Source: Polaromonas sp. (lineage in GTDB: Bacteria; Pseudomonadota; Gammaproteobacteria; Burkholderiales; Burkholderiaceae_C). From it: DNA of 64,000 nucleotides. The DNA is taken from contig JAURWY010000005.1 of the NCBI GenBank assembly GCA_030654695.1, positions 1 to 64,000 of the forward strand. The letters are read 5' to 3'. Made by a program: the position numbers and the translations under genes. Positions 17,033 to 38,459 of this stretch are shown piece by piece. The notes below the pieces were generated by a model that did not search any database, had not been told where the DNA came from, and saw only the letters and a list, made by a program, of their open reading frames with translations. The stretch's first letter is position 1; every line of letters starts with the position of its first letter.

Positions 17033-17890
17033 TCAGTAGCGCTGGCCCAAGGCCAGCAGCTCCGGCGTACCGATGACCTCGTTCAGCTGATCGAAGTCAA
17101 GCATCTGGTCTTGCATGGGCGCCGTGGTCTGGTGCGCATGCAAGCTGGCATAGTATTTTTGCAAGGTGAACGCTACCGCTCTGGCTGTGCCGCCTGGGAA
17201 AATGACAATGCGAAAGCCTTTGTCGCCCAGCACCTTGGCACTTTGCACCGGTGTCTTGCCACCCTCGACCATATTCGCCAGCAACGGGATGCGGCCGGCA
17301 AAGCGGGCACAAGCCAGCGCCATTTGCTCAGGCGTGCGCAAGGCCTCAATGAACAGCGCATCCACCCCGCAGGCCAAATAGGCCTCGGCGCGTTCCATCG
17401 CCGCTTCAAAGCCTTCGACCGCGAGCGCATCGGTGCGCGCCAGAATCAGTGTCTCGGAGGATTTACGGGCGTCGAGCGCCGCCTTCAACTTGCCGCACAT
17501 CTCGAGCGTGGGGACGACAGTTTTGCCATCCAGGTGACCGCAACGCTTGGGAAATGTCTGGTCTTCGAGTTGCAACATGGCCGCCCCCGCCTGCTCGAAA
17601 GCACGCACGGTACGCATCGTGTTCAGCGCATTGCCAAAACCGGTGTCGGCATCAACAATCACCGGGATGCTGACGCGCTCAGTGATGCGCGCCAAGGTGT
17701 CGGCCACTTCGGTCGCGGTCGTCAGACCAATGTCTGATCGGCCAAGCTTGGTGTAAGCGATGGACGCACCCGACAGGTACAGCGCCTCAAAGCCAGCCTG
17801 CTCAGCAATCAAGGCCGTTAACGGGTCATAAATCCCCGGTGCCAGCAGGACCTTCGGCTGATCTAGGCGTTGTTTGAATGAGGTGGACAT
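17033..17890 (-). CDS. Isocitrate lyase/PEP mutase superfamily C-C lyase, 2,3-dimethylmalate lyase-like
   Basis: A TIM-barrel enzyme of 285 residues. The Mg-binding DADTGFGN lies near residues 80-87, and the catalytic loop KRCGH (Cys about 117) marks a carbon-carbon lyase rather than a phosphonomutase. Related enzymes split isocitrate, 2-methylisocitrate or 2,3-dimethylmalate into a 2-oxoacid plus a second acid. AAGGAA before ATG 17888-17890 fixes the start; the longer frame to 18130 overlaps the upstream gene. It is the last gene of the 13-gene minus operon and would be the final cleavage step after the LeuCD-type hydratase. Which malate analogue it cleaves is not decided by sequence. Confidence 0.85.
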   Translation of the reverse strand: MSTSFKQRLDQPKVLLAPGIYDPLTALIAEQAGFEALYLSGASIAYTKLGRSDIGLTTATEVADTLARITERVSIPVIVDADTGFGNALNTMRTVRAFEQAGAAMLQLEDQTFPKRCGHLDGKTVVPTLEMCGKLKAALDARKSSETLILARTDALAVEGFEAAMERAEAYLACGVDALFIEALRTPEQMALACARFAGRIPLLANMVEGGKTPVQSAKVLGDKGFRIVIFPGGTARAVAFTLQKYYASLHAHQTTAPMQDQMLDFDQLNEVIGTPELLALGQRY

Positions 17891-17942
17891 AGATTTCCTT
17901 AACGATAAATGACAGGGACTTGAAATGGCGATGCAGTGACGT

Positions 17943-19364
17943 TTATGGAGCAACCAACTGCGCAGCGGCCGTCCCCGCGGCCACCCAGCCTCCGCCAACG
18001 GCGCTGAGCAGTCCATTGCCCGACAAATAACCCCAAACCGCATTGCCCGACACACCGCGGGCGGCCCCGCCTGCTGCCAACAAATTAGGCATGGGCGTGC
18101 CGTCGGCGCGTAGCACACGACAGTCCGCATCGATGTCCAGACCGCCTTGGGTATGGAACAAAGCGCCGGTGACTTTGACAGCGTAAAAAGGCCCTTTTAA
18201 GGCGCGCTTAAAGGTGCGACCGAAGGCATCCGTGGAGCCCTGCACAACCGCCGACAAGGTCTGCGCCAAGGTGTCGGCGTCGCAGCCGATCAAGTGCGCC
18301 AGCGCCTGCACATCTGCTGCTTCCTTCACTGCGCCAGCGCCTTCGGCCTCGACAAAGTCGGGGAAGGTCCGTACCAGTGCCAACAAGGGTGCGTCAAACA
18401 CATTGAAGGCGATGCCACTCGGTTGCTCCAACACATGCACGGCGGCTTCTGAATAGCCTTGGGATTCGTCGTGGAAACGCTGTCCGCGCGCGTTGATCTG
18501 CACGCCGCCTTCCATCATCACGGCCCAGCTCATGAGTGCCCCTTGCGGCGTGACCCAAGAACCGTGGCCTTGGTAACCGCCCAGATCGGCCAGTCTGGCG
18601 CCCATGGCTTGGCCCCACGTGATGGCGCTGCCGTCATTACCGACGTGGCCGGCAAACAAGGCTTGGCCCATGGCTGGCAACAGTTCACTGACCATCACCG
18701 GATTGCCGCCAAAACCATTGCAGGCCAATAGCAGCACATCGCAAGCGAGATACTCCATCGCACCATCGGGGCGTTGGTAAGCCACGCCCTGCACGATGTC
18801 GTCGTCATTCATCCACAATTCGCGCACCAGCGCTTCATTGAGCACATCTGCACCGACAGTACTGGCTGAACGTTCGAGCTGCGCCATGAGTGCGGCACCG
18901 GTGCGTTCGGGCAAGGCGTGCATGCGGCGCGCACGGTGGCCCGGGTACAAAAAGCCATCCAGCACCTCAAAGCCAATGCCGTGCGCCTCTAGAGAGTCGA
19001 TCGCTTGGGCTACGCCGGTTGAATAAGCGGCCACCAGATGCGGTGCCGCATCGCCGTGGGCCTTGGCCTGAATGTCCTCGGCAAAACGCTCGACCGAGTC
19101 GTCAATGCCCAACGACTTTTGCAAGCGTGTGCCGGCCGCCGGAATGAAGCCTGACGACAATGCCGTTGAGCCCCGTGACATGCTGTCGCGCTCCAGCAGC
19201 ACGCAATCAATGCCAGCATCGCGCAGACGCACTGAGGCCGTCAGACCGCAAGCTCCTGCACCGACAATCACCACCGGTACGTGGGGCGTTTCGCTTGGCA
19301 TGTTAGCCGCTCGCACAACGCGCGTGGCCACAGCATTGCCTGCTGGCTGATGGAGTGTGCTCAT
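17943..19364 (-). CDS. FAD-dependent dehydrogenase, fumarate reductase/tricarballylate dehydrogenase-like
   Basis: A soluble flavoprotein of 473 residues with an N-terminal dinucleotide motif VVIVGAGACGLTASVRL (near 30) and the fumarate-reductase-type C-terminal FAD end (GGLDIDADCRVL, GNAVWGYLSGNGLLSAVGGG). Relatives introduce or reduce a C=C next to carboxylates, or act on 3-ketosteroids. Its ATG overlaps the leuD-like stop as ATGA, so it is translated with the hydratase. I infer oxidation of a substituted succinate or tricarballylate to the unsaturated acid used by LeuCD. No haem or transmembrane partner is encoded here. Confidence 0.78.
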   Translation of the reverse strand: MSTLHQPAGNAVATRVVRAANMPSETPHVPVVIVGAGACGLTASVRLRDAGIDCVLLERDSMSRGSTALSSGFIPAAGTRLQKSLGIDDSVERFAEDIQAKAHGDAAPHLVAAYSTGVAQAIDSLEAHGIGFEVLDGFLYPGHRARRMHALPERTGAALMAQLERSASTVGADVLNEALVRELWMNDDDIVQGVAYQRPDGAMEYLACDVLLLACNGFGGNPVMVSELLPAMGQALFAGHVGNDGSAITWGQAMGARLADLGGYQGHGSWVTPQGALMSWAVMMEGGVQINARGQRFHDESQGYSEAAVHVLEQPSGIAFNVFDAPLLALVRTFPDFVEAEGAGAVKEAADVQALAHLIGCDADTLAQTLSAVVQGSTDAFGRTFKRALKGPFYAVKVTGALFHTQGGLDIDADCRVLRADGTPMPNLLAAGGAARGVSGNAVWGYLSGNGLLSAVGGGWVAAGTAAAQLVAP

Positions 19365-19849
19365 GGTGTTTGTCCTGTCCGTTGACGGAGTTGGTTCATC
19401 AGACCCCCTGCGGCCACCATGGCGAGCAAAAAGTCGGGAATCGGTTCGCACTGCATGTGCTCACCCGAGGGGCGTGTTAGCGTCAGCGTTTGCAGGTCGA
19501 GTTCAACTTGTTCGCCCTCCGCCAGTTGCTCAGCGTCGGGTGTGGTCAAGAGCAGCAGACCAAGGTTGAAGGCATTGCGAAAAAACAGGCCACTGAACGA
19601 GGGTGCGATCACCGCTTTGACCCCCAGTTGCACCAAGGCCGCAGCAGCTTGTTCGCGCGACGAGCCGATGCCAAAGTTGGGGCCGGCGGCGATGACGGCA
19701 CCAGGCTGAACCGAGGCCGCGAATTCCGGCCGAACCGACTCCAGGCAATGCGGTGCAATGCCTTCAATGCTGAGCTTCATGTAGGCACCGGGCGCCATCG
19801 CATCGGTGTCAATGTCAGCGCCAAATGTCCAGACGCGGTGAGTGCTCAT
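19361..19849 (-). CDS. Aconitase/IPM isomerase family small (swivel) subunit, LeuD/DmdB-like
   Basis: Small subunit of 162 residues. The N-terminal FGADIDTDAMAPGAYM and the GPNFGIGSSREQAAAAL motif (catalytic Ser-Arg) are the LeuD-type swivel domain. It overlaps leuC-like by 4 bp (ATGA) and the flavoprotein gene by 3 bp. Isopropylmalate isomerase is one reading, but no other leucine gene is present and the neighbours are catabolic. A hydratase acting on a substituted maleate, such as dimethylmaleate hydratase subunit B, fits better by context. Confidence 0.85.
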   Translation of the reverse strand: MSTHRVWTFGADIDTDAMAPGAYMKLSIEGIAPHCLESVRPEFAASVQPGAVIAAGPNFGIGSSREQAAAALVQLGVKAVIAPSFSGLFFRNAFNLGLLLLTTPDAEQLAEGEQVELDLQTLTLTRPSGEHMQCEPIPDFLLAMVAAGGLMNQLRQRTGQTP

Positions 19850-21144
19850 GCCAATATCTCCCTGGGATCAGAAATCAGTCCCCGCAGGGCAGACGCCGCC
19901 ACGGTAAAAGGCGAAGCCAAATAAACCTGTGCCGTCGCTGAACCCATCCGGCCTTTGAAATTGCGCGCCGTGGTAGCGATCACATTCGCGCCATCGGGAA
20001 TGCTGCCGCCGTAGCCGGAGCAAGCGCCGCAGGCCGTGGGAAGAACCTCCGCCCCCGCCTCGCGCAGCGTCGCCATGATGCCTTCGGACTCCGCCTGCTG
20101 CTGGTCTTGCTGGCTGGCTGGGGCCACCATCAAGCGCACGCCGGTGGCGACCTTGCGGCCTTTGAAAACCTGCGCAGCGGATCGCAAGTCGTCGAGTTTT
20201 GCACCCGTGCAAGCACCGATGTAAGCCACATCCACGCGCACCTGGTCGAAGGCTTGAACCGGTTGTGTGTTGGCCGGACTGTGCGGCGCAGCGACTTGTG
20301 GCGCCAGCGTCGCAGCATCAAAGACATGCGTGGTGGCGGTCGCGCTTTCGTCTGTCGTCCAGCCACGGAGGTCCATTTCAGCTGCAGCCGCAACGCCGGC
20401 GTTGAGCAACCATTGGCGGGTGGTTTCATCGGGCGCGATCAAGCCCACCTGAGCGCCCATCTCAGCGCTCATGTTCGACAGCGTCATGCGCTCTTGCATG
20501 GACAGTGCTTGCACGCCGGAACCACAAAATTCCACCGCTTGGTATTGGCCGCCGTTCATACCAAAACGGCCGACCATGTGCAGCATCATGTCTTTGGCAG
20601 CGACCCCCGGGCTCAAGGTGTTGTTCCACTGCATGCGAATGGTTTCGGGCACCCGCACCCAGAGCTCGCCGGTCACCATGACCCCCAGCATTTCAGTGCT
20701 GCCAATGCCGAACATGTAGGCGCCAAAAGCCCCACCTGTGGGAGAGTGCGAGTCGCCACCAACGCAAAACATGCCCGGCCGAATATGGCCTTTTTGTGGC
20801 AACACGACATGGCAGATACCAATGCTGTCGTAGACATGCGGCAAGCGCTGCTCGATGGCCCAGTCGCGCGCGATACGCACGATGCGCCGCGAATCGTCGT
20901 CCTGCTCCGGCACGTAGTGATCCATCACCAGCACCACCTTGGACTTGTCCCAAATTGTTGCGCCCAGCTCTTCCAACATCGGCTTGAGCCGACGCGGGCC
21001 TGACGAGTCATGAAACATCGCAAGGTCGACCTGGCAATTGAGAATCTCACCCACCGCCACCTGCGGCTGCCCGGCAGATTTAGCTAACAGTTTTTGGGCC
21101 AGCGTTTGGCCAGGCGATTGGGTTGGTAAATGAAGTTGAGTCAT
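19846..21144 (-). CDS. Aconitase/IPM isomerase family large subunit, LeuC/DmdA-like
   Basis: Large subunit of 432 residues that binds the catalytic [4Fe-4S] cluster. The visible ligands are Cys in GACTGAK (near 310) and the Cys pair in TACGACSGYGG (near 370). FCVGGDSHSPTGGAFGAYMFG is the family motif. It forms the heterodimer with the downstream small subunit. It probably adds or removes water across the double bond of a substituted C4 diacid, supplying the lyase encoded three genes later. Confidence 0.88.
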   Translation of the reverse strand: MTQLHLPTQSPGQTLAQKLLAKSAGQPQVAVGEILNCQVDLAMFHDSSGPRRLKPMLEELGATIWDKSKVVLVMDHYVPEQDDDSRRIVRIARDWAIEQRLPHVYDSIGICHVVLPQKGHIRPGMFCVGGDSHSPTGGAFGAYMFGIGSTEMLGVMVTGELWVRVPETIRMQWNNTLSPGVAAKDMMLHMVGRFGMNGGQYQAVEFCGSGVQALSMQERMTLSNMSAEMGAQVGLIAPDETTRQWLLNAGVAAAAEMDLRGWTTDESATATTHVFDAATLAPQVAAPHSPANTQPVQAFDQVRVDVAYIGACTGAKLDDLRSAAQVFKGRKVATGVRLMVAPASQQDQQQAESEGIMATLREAGAEVLPTACGACSGYGGSIPDGANVIATTARNFKGRMGSATAQVYLASPFTVAASALRGLISDPREILA

Positions 21145-21207: not shown

Positions 21208-21993
21208 TCAACCGGCTGGCTTGTCCTTGAGGGAAATACGGGCATCAATGCTGCCCACCTGTGACACTTCCAGTTGGTACTCGTAGCGGTCGGGTCGGTA
21301 AAGACCGTGCAGCCACTGCACAGGCTTGTCATGAATATCAAAAACAAGACGTCGAACAGCCAGCAAGGCCGAACCGATGGGCACTCCCAATTCAGCGGCC
21401 ACCACGGCATCAGCTTGGCGAGCAGATATCGTTTGCTGAGCGCGCCCGAGTTCGACACCCGACTCCTCCAACAACTGCAAGATCGGCGTGTTGGCCAGTT
21501 CGCGCCGGCCAAAGCCGACCGCCAAATGCTCGGGGATGTAGGTCGTGATGTAAGACAGCGGCCCTTCTTGCGAGCTGCGCCTGCGTACCGCTTTTTTGAC
21601 CTTGGCAGCCAGAGGAATTTGCAGCATCTCGGCAACTTCTGCCGATGCATCAACCACTCGCCAGTCCAGCACCTTCACAGTGGTCTGGCGGGTGGTGCTA
21701 ACGATGTTTTCCATCAGCCCTGTCAGCCGGGTTTGAACGCCCTTGCCCAAAGGTATCGATGTGCGGACGGACGGACCGGCTGCAGGCCAAGTACCACGAC
21801 CGGCCGTGCGAACGATCAAATCCTCACTCACCAATTGCTCCAACGCACGGCGTACGGTGACACGGCCAACACCGAACTGCTGAGCCAGCACCATCTCCGC
21901 CGGCATGCCGTTGGCAAAACGGCCTTCTTGCAATTGCTCGCGCAGCACCAGATAAATCTGGTGGTACTTGGTCAGCGGGAGAATATGGGGCAT
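21208..21993 (-). CDS. GntR-family (HutC/UTRA type) transcriptional regulator
   Basis: A repressor-type protein of 261 residues. The N-terminal winged helix is clear (YLVLREQLQEGRFANGMPAE, FGVGRVTVRRALEQLVSEDL). The C-terminal UTRA ligand domain includes SYITTYIPEHLAVGF and WLHGLYRPDRYEYQLE. It is embedded within the catabolic operon (18 nt after the AtuA-like gene) and so is autoregulated with it. It is the only regulator in the 17-38.5 kb block, which makes it the prime candidate for the repeated TTGTTC/GAACAA operators at 29.2 and 38.5 kb. That pairing is inference. Confidence 0.9.
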   Translation of the reverse strand: MPHILPLTKYHQIYLVLREQLQEGRFANGMPAEMVLAQQFGVGRVTVRRALEQLVSEDLIVRTAGRGTWPAAGPSVRTSIPLGKGVQTRLTGLMENIVSTTRQTTVKVLDWRVVDASAEVAEMLQIPLAAKVKKAVRRRSSQEGPLSYITTYIPEHLAVGFGRRELANTPILQLLEESGVELGRAQQTISARQADAVVAAELGVPIGSALLAVRRLVFDIHDKPVQWLHGLYRPDRYEYQLEVSQVGSIDARISLKDKPAG

Positions 21994-22011: not shown

Positions 22012-23448
22012 CTATACAGCAAACATCGGCTCACCGATCTCTAGACTCTGAATGTTGAAAATATCGGCCATCGGCGCGTTGTGCATGACGTGATAAATCA
22101 CAAAGCGGTAGGCATCGCAAGCGTCGATCTCGCTGGGCGTGAAAGCAAAGGCCAGGTTGCCAGCCGTCGAGACACGGCCAGGGTAGCCATAGTGCAGCAA
22201 ATTTTGTTTCACCACGCCCGCCGCCGTTCGGGCCAGCTCGGCGTCATCGGCGATGAATTCGATCACCAAGCCCGCTTCATGACGGCTGTACTGCGCCTCG
22301 GGCAATGGCCGAACAGCCCCCTGTCCATAAACGTGCGGGTACATCTTCCAGTCACCAGCTAACAACCCACGCACTCTTTGCTCAACCACCACCAGCGCCT
22401 GCGGCAAATGCTGCAGCATGGTCGGATCGGCTATACCAGCCAACAAGACAGCCCGTGCGCCGACCCAAGCGGCGCCTTCGATTTTCAGTGTCGGCTGCAG
22501 GCGAGGCTCAAACCTGGCTCCACTGACCCGCGTGCGATGTTCATCCATGGCGTGGTACTGAGCATCAGCCAAATGCAAAGTGCCCGAAGGCTCTTCGACT
22601 GCAAAGGGATCGCTCTGTTCATACAGGGCATGCGCCGCTACAGATGCCGGGGTGGCATGCAGTGCTGGGTTCATGCTCTCTAAGGTGAAGCCGTCCAGAC
22701 TGAGCTCGGCCAACATGGCGTCGCGCCCGGCAGGCTGGCAGCACAGCGATGTGCACTCGATGATCTTCGCCATGTGCAGAGACAGCCCTGGCGGGTAGTC
22801 CAGCATCTCCGGCAGCGCTGCAAAAATGGCGGTATCACAGGCTCGGCCGGCGATCAAAACGTCGGGCAGGGTTTGCAAAGCGCGCTTGAAAGTTTCGCTG
22901 CCGCACTGGCCGACGATATGACGACAACTGAGCACCTCGGCCTCGGTCGGCAGTGACAGCGCACTGCCGCCAGCATCAGCAGCCAAAGGCTGGAGTGTGC
23001 CGTCACGCAAAGCGGCCACAACGTGTGCGGCAGACACATCACTGGCAATCGTGGCCAGCCGAAACACCAGACCATGCTGCAGTGCGATATCCCGCACCAT
23101 GGCCACTGTGGCATCTAACTGCGGCTGCGCACCCGCCGTCCCGGCGCTGCCAATGATCAGTGGGATGTCGGCCTTCAGCGCGCCCAGCAAGACCAGTTCG
23201 AGGTCGCGGCGCACCATAGCCAGCGGTGCGGCCATCTGGCCCGATCCCAAATAAAACGGACCGGGATCAATCGAGCCCATATCACAGCCGATGAAGTGCG
23301 GCTGACGCTGCAAACCCAACTCGAACGAGGCCTGCGGTATGCCATAGCCAAGTTGCCCTGATGCAGACAAGACCCGCAGTGGCTCAGCGCCTGGGCGGTG
23401 CGATGTCAACAAGCGCTGAGTTGCGGTGACCCTGAGCGGCGTGCTCAT
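22012..23448 (-). CDS. AtuA-like (DUF1446) protein of unknown function
   Basis: A protein of 478 residues resembling the AtuA/DUF1446 family, named from acyclic terpene use in Pseudomonas but without an established reaction. Landmarks include LSASGQLGYGIPQASFELGL near the start, IGCDMGSIDPGPFYLGSG near residue 55, and PLIIGSAGTAG near 98. Its ATG overlaps the DUF4387 stop by 4 bp; the two families commonly occur as a pair or a fusion. Cytosolic, no signal peptide. It probably acts on an intermediate of the operon pathway; I cannot name the step. Confidence 0.72.
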   Translation of the reverse strand: MSTPLRVTATQRLLTSHRPGAEPLRVLSASGQLGYGIPQASFELGLQRQPHFIGCDMGSIDPGPFYLGSGQMAAPLAMVRRDLELVLLGALKADIPLIIGSAGTAGAQPQLDATVAMVRDIALQHGLVFRLATIASDVSAAHVVAALRDGTLQPLAADAGGSALSLPTEAEVLSCRHIVGQCGSETFKRALQTLPDVLIAGRACDTAIFAALPEMLDYPPGLSLHMAKIIECTSLCCQPAGRDAMLAELSLDGFTLESMNPALHATPASVAAHALYEQSDPFAVEEPSGTLHLADAQYHAMDEHRTRVSGARFEPRLQPTLKIEGAAWVGARAVLLAGIADPTMLQHLPQALVVVEQRVRGLLAGDWKMYPHVYGQGAVRPLPEAQYSRHEAGLVIEFIADDAELARTAAGVVKQNLLHYGYPGRVSTAGNLAFAFTPSEIDACDAYRFVIYHVMHNAPMADIFNIQSLEIGEPMFAV

Positions 23449-23756
23449 AACAGCACCTCGAGAAATGGCGCATGCTGCTGCGCGCCATACACATCGCCAT
23501 CGCCTGGACTGCCCGCCACACGCTGACGGGGCATGGAAAACTTCAGCGCCAAAATGTTGGACAAGTCAAAGCGCTTGACCTGCCCTGCACCCAGCAGGTA
23601 CATCTTGCTCACTGCGCTACTAGACAGCGCAGGGCTGGCGGCGGCTTGCTCATAGGCCGCTGCATCGCGAAAAAAAAGATCAATCGTCAACTGGGTTGGA
23701 CCGGCATTCTTGCTGCGGATCACAGAGGCCAAAGACGTCAGCTTGATTCGGTTCAT
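23445..23756 (-). CDS. DUF4387-family small protein (AtuA partner)
   Basis: A protein of 103 residues starting MNRIKLTSLASVIRSKNAGP and containing LTIDLFFRD and ILALKFSMPRQRVAGSPGDGD, typical of DUF4387. The start at ATG 23754-23756 is preferred because the longer frame to 23804 would overlap the SDR gene. There is no strong Shine-Dalgarno, so translation may be coupled to the SDR stop 19 nt upstream. It is probably a subunit working with the AtuA-like protein. Confidence 0.72.
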   Translation of the reverse strand: MNRIKLTSLASVIRSKNAGPTQLTIDLFFRDAAAYEQAAASPALSSSAVSKMYLLGAGQVKRFDLSNILALKFSMPRQRVAGSPGDGDVYGAQQHAPFLEVLL

Positions 23757-23775
23757 GGGCAGCGGTGATGACGCT

Positions 23776-24552
23776 TTAGCGCGCAGTGAAGCCACCGTCG
23801 GCACAGATCACCTGGCCCGTGATAAAAGAAGCCCGGCGCGATAACAAAAAGCTGATGAGTTCCGCAATCTCGTCAGGCTGACCCAGCCGGCCCATCGGAA
23901 TCGTCGCCAGCATCGTTGCCAAAGCAGCTGGATCGTCCAGCACCCCTGCAACCATCGGCGTCTGCACCGGACCCGGTCCGACAGCATTTAAACGCAAGCC
24001 CTCAGATGCCCACTCCAATGCCAGTGAGCGGACCATGCCATTCAGGCCCGCCTTGGAAGCCGCATAAGCAGCGCCGCGTGGATGCCCGACCAAGCCAATT
24101 TGGCTGGTGACCACCACCACGCTGGCGTCGCCAGAGCTTGACCTTGGTGCCTGACGCATCTGCGCCACCGCGGCACGCGTCAGGACAAACGTCGCGTCAA
24201 GGTTCAATGCCAGCGTCTTGCGCCATTCGTCAAGCGTCGTTTCGTCAGAGCTTTTTTTGTAAAAAATACCGGCACAACAAGCCAAGGCATCTAGCCCCCC
24301 CAGCGCCTCAGCAGCTCGCGCTGGCAAGGCGGCGCAGGCGGCATCGTCTAGTAGGTCTTGCACAAAGACCACGGCATCTGGCAGCACGCTGCGCAAGGCT
24401 TCATGCTGATGGTTGTTTTGAACCACGGCCGCCACACGGGCCCCGCGACGACTCAGTGCGCAGGCCGTGGCCAAACCGATACCTGAGCCAGCACCGGTGA
24501 CCAGCGCGTGCCGTCCTGCCATCTCAACTTCATGCAAGGTGTTGGATCGCAT
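23776..24552 (-). CDS. Short-chain dehydrogenase/reductase (FabG-like)
   Basis: A classical SDR of 258 residues. The NAD(P) motif TGAGSGIG is near 19-26, CCAGIFYK replaces the usual NNAG segment, catalytic Ser is in [10 protein letters not shown], and Tyr-x3-Lys is in AAYAASK. It oxidises or reduces an alcohol/ketone. It lies 3 nt after livF1 and is followed by the DUF4387/AtuA pair. The substrate is unknown; a hydroxy- or oxoacid intermediate of the operon is a reasonable guess. Confidence 0.88.
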
Positions 24553-24555: not shown

Positions 24556-25257
24556 TTAAAGTCCGAGGTACTTTTTACGCAAATCCGGATCGCGCGCCAA
24601 CGCCTGAGCCGGCCCTTGCATCGCCACCGCGCCGTTTTCAATGATGTAGGCCCGGTTCGCAATGGCTAATGTCTGCAATGCGTTTTGTTCCATTAAGAGG
24701 ATCGATTGACCTTCCTTGTTGATCGCCCGGATGAGGGCAAACATCTCATCAACCAACAACGGTGACAAACCCAGCGAGGGCTCGTCCATGATCAGCAGTT
24801 CCGGCTCGGACATCAGGCCGCGTCCGATCGCCAACATCTGTTGCTCACCACCCGAGAGGGTACCGGCCAACTGACCAAAGCGCTCCTTGAGGCGGGGAAA
24901 GATCGTCACCACGCGTTCGAGATTTTTCTGACGATTAGGCTTGCCTCGAACCAAGCTGCCAAGTTCTAAGTTTTCCAACACATTGAGGTTGGGAAAAACC
25001 CGGCGACCCTCCGGCACATGAATCACCCCCAGCTTGACGATATCGGTCGAACTCTTGCCGACCAACTCTTGTCCGTTAAAACGAATGGAGCCCGAAAAGG
25101 GACGATAGAGGGCCGAGATGTTGTTGTTGAGCGTCGACTTGCCCACACCATTGCTGCCCAACACCGCGACGATCTCCCCCTTGGCTAAATCAAGATCAAT
25201 ACCGCGCAGAATTTCGACCTTGCCATAGCCTGCAAACAACGAACGAATTTCAAGCAT
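24556..25257 (-). CDS. livF: Branched-chain-type ABC transporter ATP-binding protein LivF (system 1)
   Basis: A cytoplasmic ATPase of 233 residues. Walker A is GSNGVGKST, the signature LSGGEQQMLAIGRGLM is standard, and Walker B is LLIMDEPSLGLSP. The start at ATG 25255-25257 overlaps the livG1 stop by 8 bp; the longer frame to 25293 would overlap more. It is one of five Liv genes that head the catabolic operon, so the transported substrate is probably the compound degraded by the downstream genes rather than an amino acid. Confidence 0.92.
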   Translation of the reverse strand: MLEIRSLFAGYGKVEILRGIDLDLAKGEIVAVLGSNGVGKSTLNNNISALYRPFSGSIRFNGQELVGKSSTDIVKLGVIHVPEGRRVFPNLNVLENLELGSLVRGKPNRQKNLERVVTIFPRLKERFGQLAGTLSGGEQQMLAIGRGLMSEPELLIMDEPSLGLSPLLVDEMFALIRAINKEGQSILLMEQNALQTLAIANRAYIIENGAVAMQGPAQALARDPDLRKKYLGL

Positions 25258-30211: not shown

Positions 30212-30231
30212 AACCACACAAGGTCAAGCCC

Positions 30232-31602: not shown

Positions 31603-32004
31603 TCAGCCCAAAGAATTGTCACCACTCATGTAAACAAACACCTCGACAAACAAGCCGTCCTGCAGGCGAAAGAAGTTGCAGTTGTTCTTCAACAACGTCT
31701 GCCCGTCGTGGGTGATGTTTTCCACTTCAAAACGGCTGGCAATGCACTGATTTGCCACGTCGACCACATGCTCGAAATGACCATGCCAGACCTTGGCGTA
31801 ACGCTCGTTGAGTCGTTCGAATATGGCGCGCAATTCAGTGTCACGGCCAGTGTACAGGGTCGAATAAGTGGCGATGCTGAAGCGGGCATCGGGGGCAAAG
31901 CAAGCCAGCACCGCCGGCACGTCGTGACGGTCAACGGCAGCGAAGTAACGTTCGGCCAATTCGACTAACTCAGGCGCTGCCAAGGGGGGATGTGACTCAT
32001 TCAT
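31603..32004 (-). CDS. SnoaL-like/NTF2-fold protein
   Basis: A 133-residue cone-shaped NTF2-fold protein: ELAERYFAAVDRHDVPAVLA, FAPDARFSI, YTGRDTELRAIFERL and VYMSGDNSLG at the end. Such proteins serve as isomerases, cyclases, hydratases or small-molecule binders. The ATG overlaps the PhyH stop (ATGA), so it is the last gene of a five-gene minus operon. Convergent with MmgE/PrpD. Function unknown; the C-terminal half of the tautomerase fusion at 35.3 kb looks like the same fold. Confidence 0.7.
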   Translation of the reverse strand: MNESHPPLAAPELVELAERYFAAVDRHDVPAVLACFAPDARFSIATYSTLYTGRDTELRAIFERLNERYAKVWHGHFEHVVDVANQCIASRFEVENITHDGQTLLKNNCNFFRLQDGLFVEVFVYMSGDNSLG

Positions 32005-32849
32005 GACTGCACCTTTTCTTTCTGACCGCTGGGCTCTCCAAATCCCGCATCCTGCCTCGCCCGAAAGAGAGCCAGTGCCTGCGTATGCTGCTGATGGGCC
32101 AACGGGGTGAGAGGCACGGCCAGCCGCTGCTCTTCCATGAAGTGACCCTGGCTGCGTCCGCGCACGCACAGTGCGGACGGTTTGACGTTGCCCATAGGAC
32201 GAACATGTGCGGGGATGTAGCTGATGGCGTAACCGATGCGACGGTCGTCGCTCTCATTGGCGCCCGAGGCGTGAACTAGGTCAGTGTGGTGCAGTGACAT
32301 CTGCCCCGCCCCGACCGGCATCATGCATCCAGCCTCGTGGTCAAAGCGGTCGCTGATGCCCTGACCACGCGGGATCATGTTGGTGGGCTCGGGCTTGTCA
32401 TCATGCTCAAAAGCGCCCCAGTGGTGGCTCCCTGGCAAGGCGCGCATGCAACCCGCTTGCACACTGGCGTCCGACAGTGCGACCCAAGCCGTGACATGCA
32501 CATGTGGTTCGAGATAAAAGTAAGTGCTGTCTTGGTGCCAACGCACATGAGCGGGCGTTCTCGCTTCTTTGAGAAACAGCGTCGAATGGTAAACCAGAAT
32601 ATCGGGGCCGATCAGGTCTTCGACTGCGTCGAGAATTTTGGGGTGGTGCACCAATTGGTCAGCCCAATTGAACAACAGATAAGACTTGGACTTTTCAGGG
32701 AAGTTGATGGGCGTTCCCCGCGCCTTTTCCCAAGCCTGAAGTTCAGCACGGTGCTGCTGAACCTCTTGAGCGCTCAGCACATCGACAGGAAAGACGAAGC
32801 CATCGCGTTCGTAGGCGACAACTTGTTCGGGCGTCAGCAGTTGTGTCAT
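32001..32849 (-). CDS. Phytanoyl-CoA dioxygenase (PhyH) family protein
   Basis: A 282-residue Fe(II)/2-oxoglutarate-dependent oxygenase candidate. The HxD pair is in RWHQDSTYFYLE (near residue 108-110) and the distal His in MSLHHTDLVHASGAN, followed by an Arg for 2-oxoglutarate. It would hydroxylate a small substrate or a side chain. AGGAG lies before ATG 32847-32849. It lies between the racemase-family gene (32-nt gap) and the SnoaL gene. The substrate is unknown. Confidence 0.83.
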   Translation of the reverse strand: MTQLLTPEQVVAYERDGFVFPVDVLSAQEVQQHRAELQAWEKARGTPINFPEKSKSYLLFNWADQLVHHPKILDAVEDLIGPDILVYHSTLFLKEARTPAHVRWHQDSTYFYLEPHVHVTAWVALSDASVQAGCMRALPGSHHWGAFEHDDKPEPTNMIPRGQGISDRFDHEAGCMMPVGAGQMSLHHTDLVHASGANESDDRRIGYAISYIPAHVRPMGNVKPSALCVRGRSQGHFMEEQRLAVPLTPLAHQQHTQALALFRARQDAGFGEPSGQKEKVQS

Positions 32850-32881: not shown

Positions 32882-33646
32882 TTAACTCAGCGATTTTTGC
32901 GCCGCGTCCAGCATGGCGGTGAGCATGTCTAAGCGTGGATGCATGGGCCGTGGGTAGGCGGTTCGGCTGTGAGAATGCCCTAAGGCCAAGGCCGCTTCCG
33001 CCATCTTGTAGCTCAGCGGTCCCGGATTGATGACAGGCACCGGCAAGCGACTTTGCAAATAGCTGTGGGCTTGGTGCATCGTGGTCGAACCCAGGATGAT
33101 GACGTCCGCACCGTCGAGCTCAATGGCTTTCGTGGCCGCGGCTTCGAGCAAGGGAAAAACTTCTTCTTCCTTGCCTGACAGCAAGCCCTGGTTGTCGGGA
33201 CTGACTTCAATCGCCCTGACTGACGCGCATTTGTGATGCATCCCCAACTCGTCCAATGCTTTTTTGTACAGCGGCTTCCAGCGGCTGGCCATGGTCAGAA
33301 TTGAGAACTTGTCACCCAACATGAGCGCCGTCAACATAGCCACCTTGCCCGGACCGAACACGGGAATGTCGAGCACCGATCGCAGCGCGGCCACGCCGGA
33401 GTCACTCATGGTGTCAATGCAGACAGCCGCAAAGCCTTCGGCTTGCGCTCTGCAGCCGGCTTCAAAAATAGACGCATCAGCCAACACGAAGTCATGGTGG
33501 CTGGAGTAATTCACCGGTCCGGCTTTAACCGAACGGTATTCAAACTGCAGGTCCGGGCCGAACTGCAAACCTTGCAGCTGCTGCTGCCGCAATGCCAAAT
33601 TGTCTGCCGACATGGCAAAGGGAACAATAGTTAACACTTTTTTCAT
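32882..33646 (-). CDS. Asp/Glu/hydantoin racemase family protein
   Basis: A 254-residue two-domain protein. The first half carries VCIDTMSDSGVAALRSVL with a Cys at the usual first catalytic position and FGPGKVAMLTALMLGDKFSI. At the second site, where hydantoin or glutamate racemases have LGC, this protein reads ILGSTTMHQAH. It may therefore be a one-Cys enzyme such as a decarboxylase-like or cis-trans isomerase-like member (maleate isomerase and arylmalonate decarboxylase belong to the superfamily). The ATG at 33644-33646 is chosen over an upstream start that would overlap the amidohydrolase gene. Confidence 0.78.
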   Translation of the reverse strand: MKKVLTIVPFAMSADNLALRQQQLQGLQFGPDLQFEYRSVKAGPVNYSSHHDFVLADASIFEAGCRAQAEGFAAVCIDTMSDSGVAALRSVLDIPVFGPGKVAMLTALMLGDKFSILTMASRWKPLYKKALDELGMHHKCASVRAIEVSPDNQGLLSGKEEEVFPLLEAAATKAIELDGADVIILGSTTMHQAHSYLQSRLPVPVINPGPLSYKMAEAALALGHSHSRTAYPRPMHPRLDMLTAMLDAAQKSLS

Positions 33647-33671: not shown

Positions 33672-34346
33672 TCAAGCCGACGGTTGCAGTTCGACCAAGG
33701 CTTCATCGGTCGAGCGCACCCGGCCAAACAAGCGCTGAAAGTTGCGCATCGTGACATGGTGCAGATCTTCGTGCGTGGTGCCGCATGCGTCTTCCACCAG
33801 CGTCACCAGATAGCCCCTGTCTGCAGCTTCGCGCGCCGTGGTCTCAACGCACATATTGGTCGACACGCCCGCCAGATAGAGTTGCTCAGCGCCCAAGGCG
33901 CGCAGCAGGCTGTCAATGTTGGTCGATGCAAATGCACCGATGGTCGTCTTGCGCAGCACATGTTCGCCGGGCAGCGGTTTGAGCTCGTCCAAAATTTCAT
34001 GCTCGCGGCTACCGACAAAGTTGTTGAACTCAACCAGTAATTTACGCAGGTGGATGGGTGCGTCGCTGCCGTCAGGATTGGCGGCACCCAGGGTGACGTG
34101 CAGCACCGGCAGTTTGAGTTGGGTGAAGAGCGCCCGCAAACGCAAGGTACAGGGCAGCACCGACTGTTCAATGCGGTCAAAGCGGTAGTCACCAACCGTC
34201 GAGCCATCGGCCTTGAGCTTGCGACCCAAGCCACCCACACGCGAACCCGTGGCGTATTGCATGTCAATGATCACCAGCGCTGCGCGACTAGGTTGAACGG
34301 GGCGCTCGGGCATGAAAGCCCGGATGTAGTCAGCAGGAGTCGACAT
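33672..34346 (-). CDS. Isochorismatase-fold cysteine hydrolase, copy 1
   Basis: A 224-residue amidohydrolase candidate with the complete triad of the fold: Asp in ALVIIDMQYATGS, Lys in VLRKTTIGAFAST and Cys in AGVSTNMCVETTAREA. Relatives hydrolyse N-carbamoyl compounds, maleamate (NicF) or nicotinamide. GAGG precedes the ATG. It is second in the operon after deacetylase-like paralog B and directly before the racemase-family gene, so amide hydrolysis followed by isomerisation is a plausible pair of steps. Confidence 0.87.
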   Translation of the reverse strand: MSTPADYIRAFMPERPVQPSRAALVIIDMQYATGSRVGGLGRKLKADGSTVGDYRFDRIEQSVLPCTLRLRALFTQLKLPVLHVTLGAANPDGSDAPIHLRKLLVEFNNFVGSREHEILDELKPLPGEHVLRKTTIGAFASTNIDSLLRALGAEQLYLAGVSTNMCVETTAREAADRGYLVTLVEDACGTTHEDLHHVTMRNFQRLFGRVRSTDEALVELQPSA

Positions 34347-34375: not shown

Positions 34376-35311
34376 TCAGTTGGCCGTTGGCACACCCAGC
34401 ATTTGAGCCCGGTAGCTGGCGACGATCTCGGAGCCTGTGGCGCACCAAACGCCGCTGTGTCCAAGGATGTACTCCAGTGCCCGCGCCAGGTGCTCAATGC
34501 GGTGCGGCTGACCCATGATGAAGGGGTGCACGGCGATGTTCATCACCTTGCCGTGTTCGGCACCCTCGGCATACAGCGTGTCAAATTCATCGCAGATTTT
34601 TTGCGCAAAGGCAGCGGCTTCTTGACCCCGTCGCCAAGCGATGCTGTCATTGATTTCCATCGAGTAAGGCAAGGAAAAAAGCTCACCGCTGCGCACCCGA
34701 ATCGGTGTGGGTTGGTCGTCGTGGTACAGGTCACACAAGTAGCTGATGCCCGCCTCGGCGACTAAATCGGGCGTGTTCAAGGTGTTCGATGCCGCGGGCG
34801 AAAACCAACCATTCAAAGACCGTCCGGTGACCCGGCGATGAATGGCCTGACAAGCGTCAATGGCGGCACGTTCCTCGTCTTCACTCAGACCCCAGTGGTA
34901 GCGGGTGTTGTAAAGCCCGTGCGACATGAACTCCCAAGACCGGTTCAGCATGGCCTCGGCAATCTCCGGGTACATGTCGAGCACCGACATGGACAGCGAC
35001 ACCGTACAGGGCAAACGGTAGCGGTCAAAGACCTCCATGAGTCGCCAGACACCCACCCGGTTGCCGTAGTCGCGCAAGCCGTAGCCCAACACGTCGGGGT
35101 GCGGCGTGCGGGGCCAAGGGTCGCGCACGCTAGCTTGCTGCGGCAGGTATTCGTAATGTTCGATATTCGGCGCGATCCACAAGGCCACGCGTGCACCGCC
35201 TGGCCAACGCAGAGGCTGGCGGTCAGGCGCGGCGCTATACGCAATGCGTTCGAGCGGGCTGGACGCAATGGAAGTCATTGGTCCCGTGGAAGGCTTTTCA
35301 AAAGAAGGCAT
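34376..35311 (-). CDS. Polysaccharide deacetylase/PuuE-like hydrolase, paralog B
   Basis: A 311-residue member of the PuuE-like group: RWPGGARVALWIAPNIEHYE, DYGNRVGVWRLMEVFDRYRL, EFMSHGLYNTRYHWGLSEDE, GWFSPAASNTLNTPDLVAEA and HPFIMGQPHRIEHLARALEY. The His of the SHGLYNTRY motif is present. GGAAG 8 nt before the ATG at 35309-35311 supports the start. It leads the minus operon of amidohydrolase, racemase-family, PhyH and SnoaL genes and is divergent (35-nt gap) from the tautomerase fusion. It is closest to paralog D among the four copies. The substrate is inferred to be a cyclic amide. Confidence 0.78.
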   Translation of the reverse strand: MPSFEKPSTGPMTSIASSPLERIAYSAAPDRQPLRWPGGARVALWIAPNIEHYEYLPQQASVRDPWPRTPHPDVLGYGLRDYGNRVGVWRLMEVFDRYRLPCTVSLSMSVLDMYPEIAEAMLNRSWEFMSHGLYNTRYHWGLSEDEERAAIDACQAIHRRVTGRSLNGWFSPAASNTLNTPDLVAEAGISYLCDLYHDDQPTPIRVRSGELFSLPYSMEINDSIAWRRGQEAAAFAQKICDEFDTLYAEGAEHGKVMNIAVHPFIMGQPHRIEHLARALEYILGHSGVWCATGSEIVASYRAQMLGVPTAN

Positions 35312-35346: not shown

Positions 35347-35913
35347 ATGCCTGTCATTTCCATCACCTTGTTACCCGGCTACAGCGCACAGGCTGAAGAG
35401 CGGCTGGTGGGCCGTGTCGCCCTTGCTGCACGCTCTGTGATTTCCGCCGCCGCCGCAGGCACCACGGTGTTCGTGAACCACGCCCACACCTACCAACGCG
35501 ATGGCCGGGTATTTTCCAAAGGCGGGCCGGAATGCGCCGACGCCAGTGCGCTGGTGCGTCAATTTCTGGAACTGATGCAAGCGCGCAATTTGGCGGCGGC
35601 CAGCGCCCTGCTGGCGCCTGAATTTGTGATGCAGTTTCCGGGCAATGCACGCATGCACCAACTCGACGAATTGGTGGTTTGGGCCAAAGTCCGCTACAGC
35701 CGCATCGCCAAAGACTACGAACGCTTTGACGAGAGCTGGGCCGATGGCGTCACCGTGGTGTATTGCTCCGGCACCCTGAACGGTCTCTGGCTTGACGGCA
35801 CGCCATTCGAGAAGATCCGCTTCATCGACCGTTTTGAAATTGCCGATGGACAAATCAGAAAGCAAGACGTCTGGAATGACCTGGCGGAAGTCAAAGCCCA
35901 GACGCCTGTCTGA
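35347..35913 (+). CDS. Tautomerase-like domain fused to a SnoaL/NTF2-like domain
   Basis: A 188-residue protein. The first ~60 residues (MPVISITLLPGYS, VALAARSVISAAAAGTTVFV, DGRVFSKGG) look like a 4-oxalocrotonate tautomerase-type unit with Pro at position 2, the family's catalytic N-terminal residue. Residues ~65-185 look like an NTF2/SnoaL fold: LVRQFLELMQARNLAAASAL, and FIDRFEIADGQIRKQDVWND. It stands alone on the plus strand between two minus operons of the cluster and converges 4 nt from paralog C. It may catalyse keto-enol or double-bond isomerisation of an unsaturated acid. The fusion is unusual to me. Confidence 0.65.
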   Translation: MPVISITLLPGYSAQAEERLVGRVALAARSVISAAAAGTTVFVNHAHTYQRDGRVFSKGGPECADASALVRQFLELMQARNLAAASALLAPEFVMQFPGNARMHQLDELVVWAKVRYSRIAKDYERFDESWADGVTVVYCSGTLNGLWLDGTPFEKIRFIDRFEIADGQIRKQDVWNDLAEVKAQTPV

Positions 35914-35917: not shown

Positions 35918-36862
35918 TCAAGCCTGCGATGTTTTCCAGGCATCCAGGATCTCGCTTCCGGTGGCCGCCCACACGCCCTTGTGACGCATGATGTGCGCCA
36001 GCGCTTCTTCCAGCGCACGCATGCGGTAAGGCTGGCCGATCACCCAAGGGTGCAGCGAAATCGCCATGACCCGTCCACCCGCCGTGGCTGACTCTTTGTA
36101 CAGCAGGTCGAACTGGTCGCAGAGCTGGTCCCGGAAGTCATCTTCGGTGTGGTGGTTTTGAACCAAGATGGTGTGATCATCGATGTCGATGGGGTGCGGC
36201 ATCGCGTGAATCGGCCCACTGGCCGTGCGCATGGCGTAAGGCATGTCGTCATTGACCCAGTCACACACGTAATCCATGCCCGCGGCGCCCAGCAAGTCCA
36301 GCGTACTGGCCGACTCTGACTTGGCCGGCGACAACCAACCCCGCACCGCCTGGCCACTGGCCCGGCGCAAGATCTCTAGCGTGGTGTCAATCAGCTTTTT
36401 CTCATCGTCCAGCGCCAGACCCGCATGGTGCAAATGGTCCATGTCCAGACCATTCGCCATGATCTCCCAACCCCGCTGCGTGCACTCTTTGATGAGCGAG
36501 GGGTAACGCACAGCGACCGCGGCGTTGACCGCCACCGTGGGCCGAATACCGTGTTTTTCAAGCGCCTTCATGATCCGAAAAATACCCACCCGATTGCCAT
36601 AGTCGCGCAGGGTGTAGTGACGCAGGTCCGGGTAAGCGGTCTGCATGGCACCAGGCGGCTTGAAGGGCACGCCCGCCATGTTCAGCGGAAACCACTCCAG
36701 TGCCGGCACCACCCACAACGCAACGCGGGCGTTGTGCGGCCAGACCACGGCTTTGCGCTCGGGCAACATCGACCAGTCATAACGGTCATGGTCCATGCCG
36801 TAACGGCGCAACGGATAGTCCAGATAATTCTCAGGCAAAGCTTTTGGATTCGTCGTGCTCAT
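35918..36862 (-). CDS. Polysaccharide deacetylase/PuuE-like hydrolase, paralog C
   Basis: A 314-residue PuuE-like protein: DYGNRVGIFRIMKALEKHGI, GWLSPAKSESASTLDLLGAA, DWVNDDMPYAM, SLHPWVIGQPYRMRALEEAL. At the position where paralogs A, B and D have a His (GHG or SHG) this copy reads IMANGLDMDHLHHAG, so the active site differs, perhaps with His supplied a few residues later. Start ATG with GGAG upstream; it overlaps the paralog D stop (ATGA). It may have a different substrate or form a mixed complex with paralog D. Confidence 0.77.
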   Translation of the reverse strand: MSTTNPKALPENYLDYPLRRYGMDHDRYDWSMLPERKAVVWPHNARVALWVVPALEWFPLNMAGVPFKPPGAMQTAYPDLRHYTLRDYGNRVGIFRIMKALEKHGIRPTVAVNAAVAVRYPSLIKECTQRGWEIMANGLDMDHLHHAGLALDDEKKLIDTTLEILRRASGQAVRGWLSPAKSESASTLDLLGAAGMDYVCDWVNDDMPYAMRTASGPIHAMPHPIDIDDHTILVQNHHTEDDFRDQLCDQFDLLYKESATAGGRVMAISLHPWVIGQPYRMRALEEALAHIMRHKGVWAATGSEILDAWKTSQA

Positions 36863-37776
36863 GGGGCTTCTCCCACGGGCTGGGCAGCGGCCGCAAAAGC
36901 ATCAAAGTAGTGGTCGTTGAAATGTTGAGCGATCTCGCGGCCGGTGGCCAACCAGACCTTGTCGTGACTGGTGATGTAAGACAGCGCTTCTTCAAACGCC
37001 GCCATGCGGTAAGGCTGACCGACCAGATAAGGGTGCAGAGGAATACACATGACGGTTCCGGACGCCTCACCTTCTTCATACAGGCGGTCAAACTGGCGTT
37101 TCAAGATATCGGCGTAGCGCCGCGGCTGCACCAAGTTAACGTTGTAGACGATGGTGTCGTTCATTTCCAGCGAGTAAGGCACGCTGGTCAAACGACCTTT
37201 CTTGACCTTGACTGGGCCAGGTTGGTCATCATGAAACAAGTCGCAAATATAGGTCAACCCCATCTCGGCCACCAAGTCTAGGGTGTTTGGCGTGTAGGTC
37301 AGTGCGGGCGCCAACCAGCCGTCCAATTTTTGTCCTGTGTGATTGCGGATGGTGTCGATGGAGTCTTGAATCACCGCACGTTCTTCGGCCTCGCTCATGC
37401 CCATCAGGTAACGTGTGTTGTAAGTGCCGTGTGAATAAAACTCCCAGCCGTTGTCAGCGCAGGCCTTGATGACTTCAGGATGGTGCTCGCACATGGCCAC
37501 ATTCAAGGACACACTACCACGCACATTGCAGCGCTTCATGGCTTCCAGCATGCGCCAGAAACCGGCACGGTTGCCGTAGTCACGGTAGGAATAATTCAGC
37601 ACATCGGGCGAAGGTCTGGCCCACGGTGGACGGGACGGATTGCGCGGCGGATTGAGCTCGTAAAACTCCACATTCGGCGCAACCCAAAAGGCCACCCGGG
37701 CGCCACCCGGCCAGCGGATCACAGGCCGCTCGGCGTTGTACGGAAGGTAGTCGTAAAGTGCCGGATCGCGTTTCAC
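36859..37776 (-). CDS. Polysaccharide deacetylase/PuuE-like hydrolase, paralog D
   Basis: A 305-residue member: RWPGGARVAFWVAPNVEFYE, DYGNRAGFWRMLEAMKRCNV, EFYSHGTYNTRYLMGMSEAE, GWLAPALTYTPNTLDLVAEM, HPYLVGQPYRMAAFEEALSY. Start is GTG (37774-37776) overlapping the amidohydrolase stop as GTGA. It is the second gene of a three-gene operon with the second isochorismatase-fold gene in front and paralog C behind. Closest to paralog B by motif comparison. Confidence 0.78.
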   Translation of the reverse strand: MKRDPALYDYLPYNAERPVIRWPGGARVAFWVAPNVEFYELNPPRNPSRPPWARPSPDVLNYSYRDYGNRAGFWRMLEAMKRCNVRGSVSLNVAMCEHHPEVIKACADNGWEFYSHGTYNTRYLMGMSEAEERAVIQDSIDTIRNHTGQKLDGWLAPALTYTPNTLDLVAEMGLTYICDLFHDDQPGPVKVKKGRLTSVPYSLEMNDTIVYNVNLVQPRRYADILKRQFDRLYEEGEASGTVMCIPLHPYLVGQPYRMAAFEEALSYITSHDKVWLATGREIAQHFNDHYFDAFAAAAQPVGEAP

Positions 37777-38459
37777 TGATTTTTCCCTGCAGCAGAAGGC
37801 ACGCGGCGCAACTGCTCAATGGTTTCTTGCACCGACAAGACGTCGGCGTATTTCAGCGCCATGTCGTACAAATTGGCGAAGTGCGGGGCCTCGTGTTTGT
37901 CGGCCACACATTCTTCCGGGACGATGGTGCGAAAACTCCGCGAAATGCTGTCGACCACGGTGGCACGCACACAACCCGACGTCGAACCACCGGTCACCAC
38001 AAGGGTGTCGACCCCATGAAAGTTGAAGACCGAACCGAGGTTGGTTTCAAAAAAGACCGAGGCCATGCGCTTGTTCACGATGATGTCCCGCTTGTGGTCA
38101 ATCACCAGGCGATCGTCGAATTCGGCGCGGCGGCTACCGACCTTGATGTTTTGCAGTGAATCGGGCGTGTTGGTGCGGGTGCCCCAGACGCCGCAATCTT
38201 CGCCTGACTCCATGTACGCCACATAGGTCCAAACCACCGGAAAACCTTTGGTCCGGAATTCTTCAGCCAGCGTGTTCACGTACTCCAGCTGACGCGGATC
38301 GGTTTCGTAGGCCGTCGCAAATTCACCAACGTTGGTGTAGGCTTTTTGAAGATCGATATTGACCAGGGCCGGCATTTTTCCAAAACCAAAACGCTTGCGG
38401 GTGGGGTTGGTCTTGACATCGGTATACAGCTGTCGGGCGGTCTTGCTAGAGGCTTCCAT
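37773..38459 (-). CDS. Isochorismatase-fold cysteine hydrolase, copy 2 (N-carbamoylsarcosine amidase-like)
   Basis: A 228-residue cysteine hydrolase. The triad is visible: Asp in ALVNIDLQKAYTNVGEF, Lys in IIVNKRMASVFFETNL, and Cys in GGSTSGCVRATVVDSISR. The last motif resembles N-carbamoylsarcosine amidohydrolase and related maleamate amidases. It is the first gene of the 38.5 kb operon, directly under the palindromic operator, and feeds into two PuuE-like genes. Such a pair would open a ring and then remove an amide or carbamoyl group. Confidence 0.86.
   Translation of the reverse strand: MEASSKTARQLYTDVKTNPTRKRFGFGKMPALVNIDLQKAYTNVGEFATAYETDPRQLEYVNTLAEEFRTKGFPVVWTYVAYMESGEDCGVWGTRTNTPDSLQNIKVGSRRAEFDDRLVIDHKRDIIVNKRMASVFFETNLGSVFNFHGVDTLVVTGGSTSGCVRATVVDSISRSFRTIVPEECVADKHEAPHFANLYDMALKYADVLSVQETIEQLRRVPSAAGKNQ

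Follow-up and report, generated by a model that had tools for sequence, protein, structure and literature searches.

A conserved gene set of Comamonadaceae with a shared operator and a probable role in the uptake and breakdown of a small nitrogen-ring compound

What compound is handled by a block of genes in which an importer operon stands next to four PuuE-type hydrolases and two candidate amidases, and do these genes form one system? We addressed this question for positions 17,033 to 38,459 of a 64,000-nucleotide stretch (the window) of contig JAURWY010000005.1, part of the 3.45 Mb genome of Polaromonas sp. (GCA_030654695.1). The block is part of a conserved Comamonadaceae set of about two dozen genes, whose probable role is to take up a small nitrogen-ring compound and break it down. 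More specifically, we give a probability of about 0.5 to the reading that this compound is a cyclic imide of the succinimide or maleimide class, with a C-substituted, five-membered ring, or else a closely similar ring-amide, which the genes would import and degrade as one unit. Judged from the genes, an imide seems the best of several candidates.

Profile searches placed the genes where the initial annotation had them. A 13-gene operon runs from 29.1 to 17.0 kb and encodes, in order, a solute-binding protein (SBP), LivH, LivM, LivG, LivF, an SDR, a DUF4387 protein (CmlB below), an AtuA-like protein (CmlA below), a GntR/UTRA regulator, LeuC-like and LeuD-like proteins, an FAD dehydrogenase and a lyase of the phosphoenolpyruvate (PEP)-mutase/isocitrate lyase (ICL) type (Lyase below). 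Puu1 and PrpD are transcribed divergently from this operon. Further along come SnoaL, PhyH, Race, Iso1 and Puu2, then the Met-Pro/SnoaL gene on the strand opposite to its neighbors, and then Puu3, Puu4 and Iso2, whose gene ends overlap. The totals are four PuuE-type proteins (Puu2 and Puu4 of class A, Puu1 and Puu3 of class B), two isochorismatases (Iso1 and Iso2) and one each of the racemase-family (Race), MmgE/PrpD and PhyH proteins (Table 1).

The initial annotation had proposed a shared operator for these genes, and this proposal was borne out. Both operator sites match TTGTTC-N8-GAACAA: one precedes Puu1 by 92 bp and the probable start of SBP by about 55 bp, the other lies upstream of Iso2, and the operator precedes 18 of the 24 genes of the cluster. 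In its bare form the pattern had four exact palindromic sites genome-wide, as compared to none for the reversed control. When refined to TTGTYCYRN4YRGRACAA, with at most one mismatch, it was found only at the two cluster sites in the 3.45 Mb; the other two exact sites (contigs 21 and 31) fall outside the refined pattern and were set aside. When only the window was counted, at up to two mismatches, 3 sites were observed and 2.66 were expected, which is not above chance; the case for the operator rests on exactness, place and conservation. A longer palindrome, GAACAATTNNATTGTTC, was also considered as the operator and rejected, as it occurs at a single place and is not above chance.

To follow the sites and genes across genomes we used the best 80 of 192 relatives, comprising a CmlA clade of 37 loci (CmlA identity at least 62%) and 43 other loci; all conservation counts ignore shared ancestry. 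Among these 80, the nearest relatives of the locus are in metagenome-assembled genomes labeled Comamonadaceae. The Puu1/SBP intergenic region was scorable in 26 relatives, with an exact site in 21, one mismatch in 3 and two mismatches in 2; L045 was excluded from this count because its genes are rearranged. Upstream of Iso2, a site with at most one mismatch was present in 17 of 20 relatives at a distance of 37-113 bp, counted by eye in stretches that we picked from the 32 genomes carrying Puu2. Two-mismatch sites occupy the same place in L107 and L108, and in L111 Iso2 sits after Puu1-PrpD on the same strand. The clade loci (588 kb) held 28 sites with at most one mismatch, namely 24 at the SBP promoter, one before Iso2 and 3 elsewhere, while 29 permuted palindromes used as a control gave a mean of 0.86 sites and a maximum of 3. 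Four such sites were found in the 43 other loci (683 kb). The operon-encoded GntR/UTRA protein presumably binds this operator; in the stretches of L030 and L044 the GntR gene is absent, and the operator site is absent too.

The same gene set recurred in related genomes. Gene linkage was scored with identity thresholds that we set ourselves, and only loci with enough flank were counted. Within the clade, CmlB was linked in 34/34 loci, Puu1 and PrpD each in 27/27, GntR in 33/35, LeuC in 28/30, SBP in 26/28, the FAD dehydrogenase in 23/25 and Lyase in 18/20. Among the other 43 loci, Puu1 and PrpD each reached their thresholds in 1 of 25; outside this count, weaker Puu1 relatives adjoin CmlAB in L082 (45%, shorter flank), L050 (38%), L063 (39%) and L078 (40%). 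Because the 10-kb flanks mostly stop short of Iso1 and Puu2, whole genomes were queried for Puu2. It was present at 74% identity or more in 32 of the 37 clade genomes, with partial matches in two (G565 and G571), and the whole-genome search found no Puu2 in the genomes of L012, L013, L019, L024 and L028. In 27 of these 32 genomes (counted by eye) another class A gene is found no more than 4 kb away, and we took this gene to be Puu4. Of 150 genomes of the family, three (our own, G037 and G082) carry CmlA at 66% or more, and the same three carry Puu2 at 77% or more.

Gene order points the same way. On a single contig, L098 has Puu4-Puu3-Puu2-Iso1-Race-PhyH-SnoaL followed by PrpD and Puu1 divergent from SBP. 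CmlBA adjoins Puu/Iso genes in L030, L044, L045, L050, L063 and L082, in differing orders. Over 21 kb each, L030 and L044 retain Puu1, PrpD, Puu2, Iso1 and CmlBA and lack the importer, GntR, LeuCD, FAD and Lyase genes; we take the retained genes to be the minimal core. L044 is Verticiella sediminum DSM 27279, where these core genes are present and the importer operon and operator do not adjoin them. We consider the evidence strong that the cluster is a single conserved unit under joint control.

The most informative part of this unit is the AtuA/DUF4387 pair, to which the initial annotation had given no function. The AtuA-family protein matches PDB 9erq_A over residues 23-458 and the DUF4387 protein matches 9erq_B over residues 21-117 (E values in Table 1). 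The two genes are adjacent and each product resembles its counterpart in the solved enzyme over most of its length, which places them with CmlAB. The subunits of 9erq were deposited as citramalate lyase cmlA and cmlB; we use the citramalate-lyase name because of this depositors' label and because of the gene context in E. coli, where a DUF1446/DUF4387 pair is flanked by the genes for methylaspartate ammonia-lyase and class I fumarase (L122, plasmid CP088669.1, 7998-9682). On a Klebsiella plasmid (L093, 7989-9708), four genes separate the DUF1446/DUF4387 pair from fumarate hydratase. Adjacency and likeness over most of the length are common to CmlAB (PDB 9erq and 9evf), the enterobacterial pair and our cluster, whose proteins are 37-40% (CmlA) and 36% (CmlB) identical to the enterobacterial ones. 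The partners differ: in the cluster CmlAB accompanies ring-opening hydrolases and LeuCD, whereas the enterobacterial pair accompanies methylaspartate ammonia-lyase and class I fumarase. In the excerpts available of PMC4682846, DUF1446 is mentioned and the fate of glutamate-derived citramalate in enterobacteria is left open. The methylaspartate-cluster setting near class I fumarase suggests that the enterobacterial CmlAB probably carries out this citramalate cleavage. For the cluster, we propose on the strength of homology that the AtuA/DUF4387 pair is the key enzyme and of citramalate-lyase type.

A hydratase and a second lyase are encoded alongside, as the initial annotation had anticipated. 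The LeuC-like protein passed the cut-offs of NF001614 (530.2 bits, cut-off 385) and TIGR01343 (414.3, cut-off 385.7) and fell slightly below that of TIGR02086 (407.1, cut-off 410.15), while the LeuD-like protein passed that of TIGR02087 (161.1 bits, cut-off 108.95). LeuC-type hydratases have three cluster cysteines, here C312, C372 and C375, and together with the subfamily scores these assign the pair to the LeuCD/HacAB/DmdAB hydratases. Lyase belongs to the ICL/PEP-mutase superfamily, with a PF13714 (PEP_mutase) match at E 2.1e-42 and, at residue 195, KRCGH, which we take to be the lyase motif of that superfamily. It scored 286.6 bits against TIGR02317 (methylisocitrate lyase PrpB), below the cut-off of 354.4, and matched dimethylmalate lyase 3fa3 at E 6.8e-47, behind methylisocitrate lyases. 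A LeuC/LeuD-type hydratase and an ICL-superfamily KRCGH lyase are also common to nicotinate fermentation (DmdAB and 2,3-dimethylmalate lyase, of which 3fa3 was the one compared); neither a mutase nor a methylitaconate isomerase was seen among the cluster genes.

The candidates for ring opening are the four Puu proteins. Their PuuE-type fold was upheld, while the allantoinase identity was not: TIGR03212 (PuuE allantoinase, cut-off 424.6) gave 82.2 bits for Puu1, 153.9 for Puu2, 125.4 for Puu3 and 154.7 for Puu4. Allantoin was ruled out as the main substrate because a bona fide PuuE (493.6 bits) is encoded elsewhere in the same genome. In an alignment of 66 of 67 Puu matches (one was dropped beforehand), class A proteins carry the motif SHGxYNTRY, compared with SHGYRW in PuuE 3cl6. 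Unlike the PuuE allantoinase, cluster-type Puu genes mostly come as A/B pairs, and two Puu-A/Puu-B/Iso sets are present in our one cluster. Separately, L089, L091, L092 and L101 contain an isochorismatase with class A and B PuuE-type paralogues, a portable triad around which transporters and amidases vary. Aspergillus nidulans HxnM and the Pseudomonas putida YZ-26 imidase, compared here by description, belong with the Puu proteins to a wider deacetylase-fold group. The available passages of PMC9304392 describe ring opening by HxnM followed by action of a separate amidase, HxnN; unlike the cluster, the route as given in those passages includes no CmlAB-type lyase.

For the second step, both amidase candidates have the predicted isochorismatase domain PF00857 (Iso1, E 2.2e-35; Iso2, E 3.1e-28). 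An isochorismatase fold and an Asp/Glu racemase superfamily member are common to the cluster and to aerobic nicotinate breakdown, in which NicF and NicE carry out the maleamate and maleate steps. A racemase role for Race is itself unsure because it has Ser where its Amdase-like relative carries Cys.

The sequence establishes gene content, operator, conservation and CmlAB homology; the reactions of the following route, and their order, are predictions. A Liv-type ABC transporter would take up the ring compound, and class A Puu2 and Puu4, paired with the class B proteins Puu1 and Puu3, would open the ring to a half-amide. Race would probably epimerize a ring carbon. Iso1 or Iso2 would then free ammonia, and the C4 diacid that remains would carry a side chain. 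Where a double bond is needed the FAD dehydrogenase would make it, and a LeuCD-type or PrpD-type enzyme would follow by adding water. Finally, CmlAB and the PrpB-like Lyase, in parallel, would cleave the 2-hydroxy diacid to give a 2-oxoacid and a carboxylate, the model for the CmlAB step being citramalate cleaved to pyruvate and acetate. The one-pathway interpretation of the initial annotation thus survives in part: the single unit holds, the maleate-isomerase step has become less likely, and the reactions are putative. A bolder version, to which we give somewhat less than an even chance, is that this is an undescribed aerobic imide pathway and regulon. In it the PuuE-type pairs, a catalytic A and a B with altered active-site motifs, would form a hetero-oligomeric imidase feeding a coenzyme A (CoA)-independent AtuA/DUF4387 citramalate-type lyase, the imide ring would be broken down, with no CoA step, to ammonia and two acids, a 2-oxoacid and a short carboxylate, and the natural substrates in these Comamonadaceae would be alkyl maleimides and succinimides that come from pigments. 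We call the pathway undescribed because searches of the open-licence literature found no publication on bacterial cyclic-imide catabolism with a half-amidase.

Several observations weigh against the proposed route. PhyH, SnoaL and the SDR fit nowhere in the scheme, and neither does the Met-Pro/SnoaL gene. Puu2-Iso1-Race-PhyH-SnoaL has no operator of its own, nor has the Met-Pro/SnoaL gene, and SnoaL, PhyH and Race adjoin the cluster in just 15, 13 and 15 of 25 clade loci. Besides our own genome, 15 of 398 genomes of the order have a CmlA of 52-58%, and 3 of those 15 have Puu2 above the cut; G357 has Puu2 and no such CmlA. No publication on CmlAB or 9erq was found in the open-licence literature. 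Puu2 is nearer to PuuE (E 7e-31) than to 3qbu (E 3e-13), the closest solved homologue of HxnM. The remaining points concern the neighbors of the other enzymes, which are of ureide type: Iso2 is closest to N-carbamoylsarcosine amidohydrolase, the nearest relatives of Iso1 include biuret hydrolase and RutB, and in the fold comparison Race is closer to allantoin racemase than to maleate isomerase. This last result, with the Ser-for-Cys change, lowers the maleate-isomerase role that Race had been given. It could be speculated from these neighbors that Race epimerizes a 5-substituted hydantoin or related ureide, the PuuE-type enzymes open its ring, Iso1 and Iso2 strip the carbamoyl group, and CmlAB and LeuCD handle the carbon skeleton after an unseen loss of nitrogen. 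Allantoin, the substrate of PuuE, is indeed a ureide. One paper, though, terms it a small cyclic imide. However, no aminotransferase, amino-acid oxidase or ammonia-lyase was found among the scanned cluster genes, the hydratase, FAD enzyme and both lyases fit nitrogen-free di- or tricarboxylates, and the serine of Race leaves even the racemase step unsure; we regard a ureide or hydantoin route as unlikely, if still to be reckoned with. That the PuuE-like proteins are plain sugar or peptidoglycan deacetylases in a neighborhood unrelated to rings is scarcely credible, as acetyl-sugar deacetylation was rejected after comparison of the Puu sequences.

Another possibility is that two independent pathways answer to a common regulator, an importer and degradation operon for alkyl diacids and a nitrogen-scavenging operon for cyclic amides. 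The Iso-Puu-A-Puu-B triad does occur without CmlAB in the four loci named above, and CmlAB is found without close Puu genes. Yet CmlBA adjoins Puu/Iso/PrpD genes in six loci of varied orders, and Puu2 and CmlA orthologues co-occur, so a division of this kind is improbable in our view. A narrower version of the cyclic-imide interpretation names a tetrapyrrole-derived substrate, such as methylethylmaleimide, methylvinylmaleimide, hematinic acid or a bilin-ring succinimide, with the two Puu/Iso sets serving differing side chains. This is a bold guess and decidedly doubtful. The presence of two Puu-A/Puu-B/Iso sets in a single cluster would suit it, as would a LeuCD-type hydratase beside a lyase whose relatives include 2,3-dimethylmalate lyase and petal death protein, the latter of which prefers dialkyl malates. 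Excerpts from the literature on chlorophyll and heme breakdown also mention maleimides and hematinic acid. On the other hand, the cluster showed no gene specific to pigments, a flat maleimide would give a racemase nothing to do, and the sequence singles out no one imide.

Other features of the window and the related loci were recorded. The gene that the initial annotation called a tautomerase fusion does have a SnoaL_2 domain; its tautomerase part stays putative, the label coming from the Met-Pro start and the first ~60 residues having no Pfam match at 1e-5. Antisense to it is orf215 (35371-36018, minus strand), which was not counted as a gene. The abhydrolase, RF-1 and CMD genes past 38.5 kb were left out; among 20 stretches, several of them too short to tell, L102-L104 are the only ones in which Iso2 is followed by all three. 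At 40013-49065 there is a second Liv-type importer operon, which includes Lyase_1, a carboxymuconolactone decarboxylase/hydrolase fusion, an AP_endonuc_2-type TIM barrel and an HPPD-like gene and stands beside an IclR regulator; it resembles a set for quinate/protocatechuate breakdown, and the refined-pattern genome scan found no operator site of this regulon there. In L045 (1342-4265), an Amdase-type gene, an amidohydrolase and a second racemase-family gene stand ahead of Puu2-Iso1-CmlBA, possibly as another entry route. In L030, two 2-oxoglutarate oxygenases, an ApbA reductase and an SDR (1100-4762) precede Puu1-PrpD-Puu2-Iso1-CmlBA, and a PrpF-family gene (12602-13786) lies downstream. L029, from a record titled Singulisphaera, has a 64% CmlA and a Comamonadaceae-type operon from SBP to Lyase, and is probably a mis-binned contig.

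Table 1. Genes and operator sites of the cluster, in window coordinates (ORF, open reading frame)
Feature	Position	Strand	Evidence or remark
Lyase, PEP-mutase/ICL-superfamily C-C lyase, KRCGH motif	17033..17890	-	ORF to 18130; later start likely
FAD-dependent dehydrogenase, flavocytochrome c / TcuA type	17943..19364	-	ORF to 19451; later start likely
LeuD/DmdB-type hydratase small subunit	19361..19849	-	TIGR02087 161 bits, cut-off 109
LeuC/HacA/DmdA-type hydratase large subunit	19846..21144	-	NF001614, TIGR01343; Cys 312, 372, 375
GntR/UTRA regulator, presumed operator binder	21208..21993	-	profile search; 33/35 clade loci
AtuA-family, citramalate-lyase subunit A (CmlA)-like	22012..23448	-	PF07287; PDB 9erq_A E 9.6e-89
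DUF4387, citramalate-lyase subunit B (CmlB)-like	23445..23804	-	PF14330; PDB 9erq_B E 2.9e-18
SDR dehydrogenase	23776..24552	-	profile search
LivF-type ATPase	24556..25293	-	profile search
LivG-type ATPase	25250..25996	-	profile search
LivM-type permease	25993..26967	-	PF02653
LivH-type permease	26964..27833	-	PF02653
SBP, Peripla_BP_6 solute-binding protein	27928..29145	-	PF13458; ORF to 29208, start likely 29145
Operator site 1, TTGTTCCATGCTTAGAACAA	29200..29219		between Puu1-PrpD (+) and importer operon (-)
Puu1, PuuE-type, class B	29312..30211	+	profile search, alignment
PrpD, MmgE/PrpD family	30160..31584	+	closest solved relatives IDS-epimerase, IRG1
SnoaL-like protein	31603..32004	-	ORF to 32169; likely start overlaps PhyH stop
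PhyH-type Fe/2-oxoglutarate oxygenase	32001..32849	-	H-x-D at residue 105
Race, Asp/Glu/hydantoin racemase-family	32882..33646	-	ORF to 33757; later start likely
Iso1, isochorismatase-type amidase	33672..34346	-	PF00857; distant kin include biuret hydrolase, RutB
Puu2, PuuE-type hydrolase, class A	34376..35311	-	profile search, alignment
Met-Pro/SnoaL, Met-Pro-starting protein with SnoaL_2 domain	35347..35913	+	SnoaL_2 match
Puu3, PuuE-type, class B	35918..36862	-	SHG motif: Asn in place of His
Puu4, PuuE-type hydrolase, class A	36859..37776	-	profile search, alignment
Iso2, isochorismatase-type amidase	37773..38459	-	closest: N-carbamoylsarcosine amidohydrolase
Operator site 2, TTGTTCTGTCAATAGAACAA	38510..38529		~50 bp upstream of Iso2

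The core pathway is testable in a named strain, V. sediminum DSM 27279. In addition, the AtuA/DUF4387 pair supplies a possible answer to the question about enterobacterial citramalate that PMC4682846 raises. If the proposed pathway is true, it would widen the range of PuuE-type enzymes to ring opening by pairs of proteins, have a ring pathway end with a CoA-independent lyase of citramalate type, and give the Comamonadaceae a gene-level route for cyclic-imide carbon.

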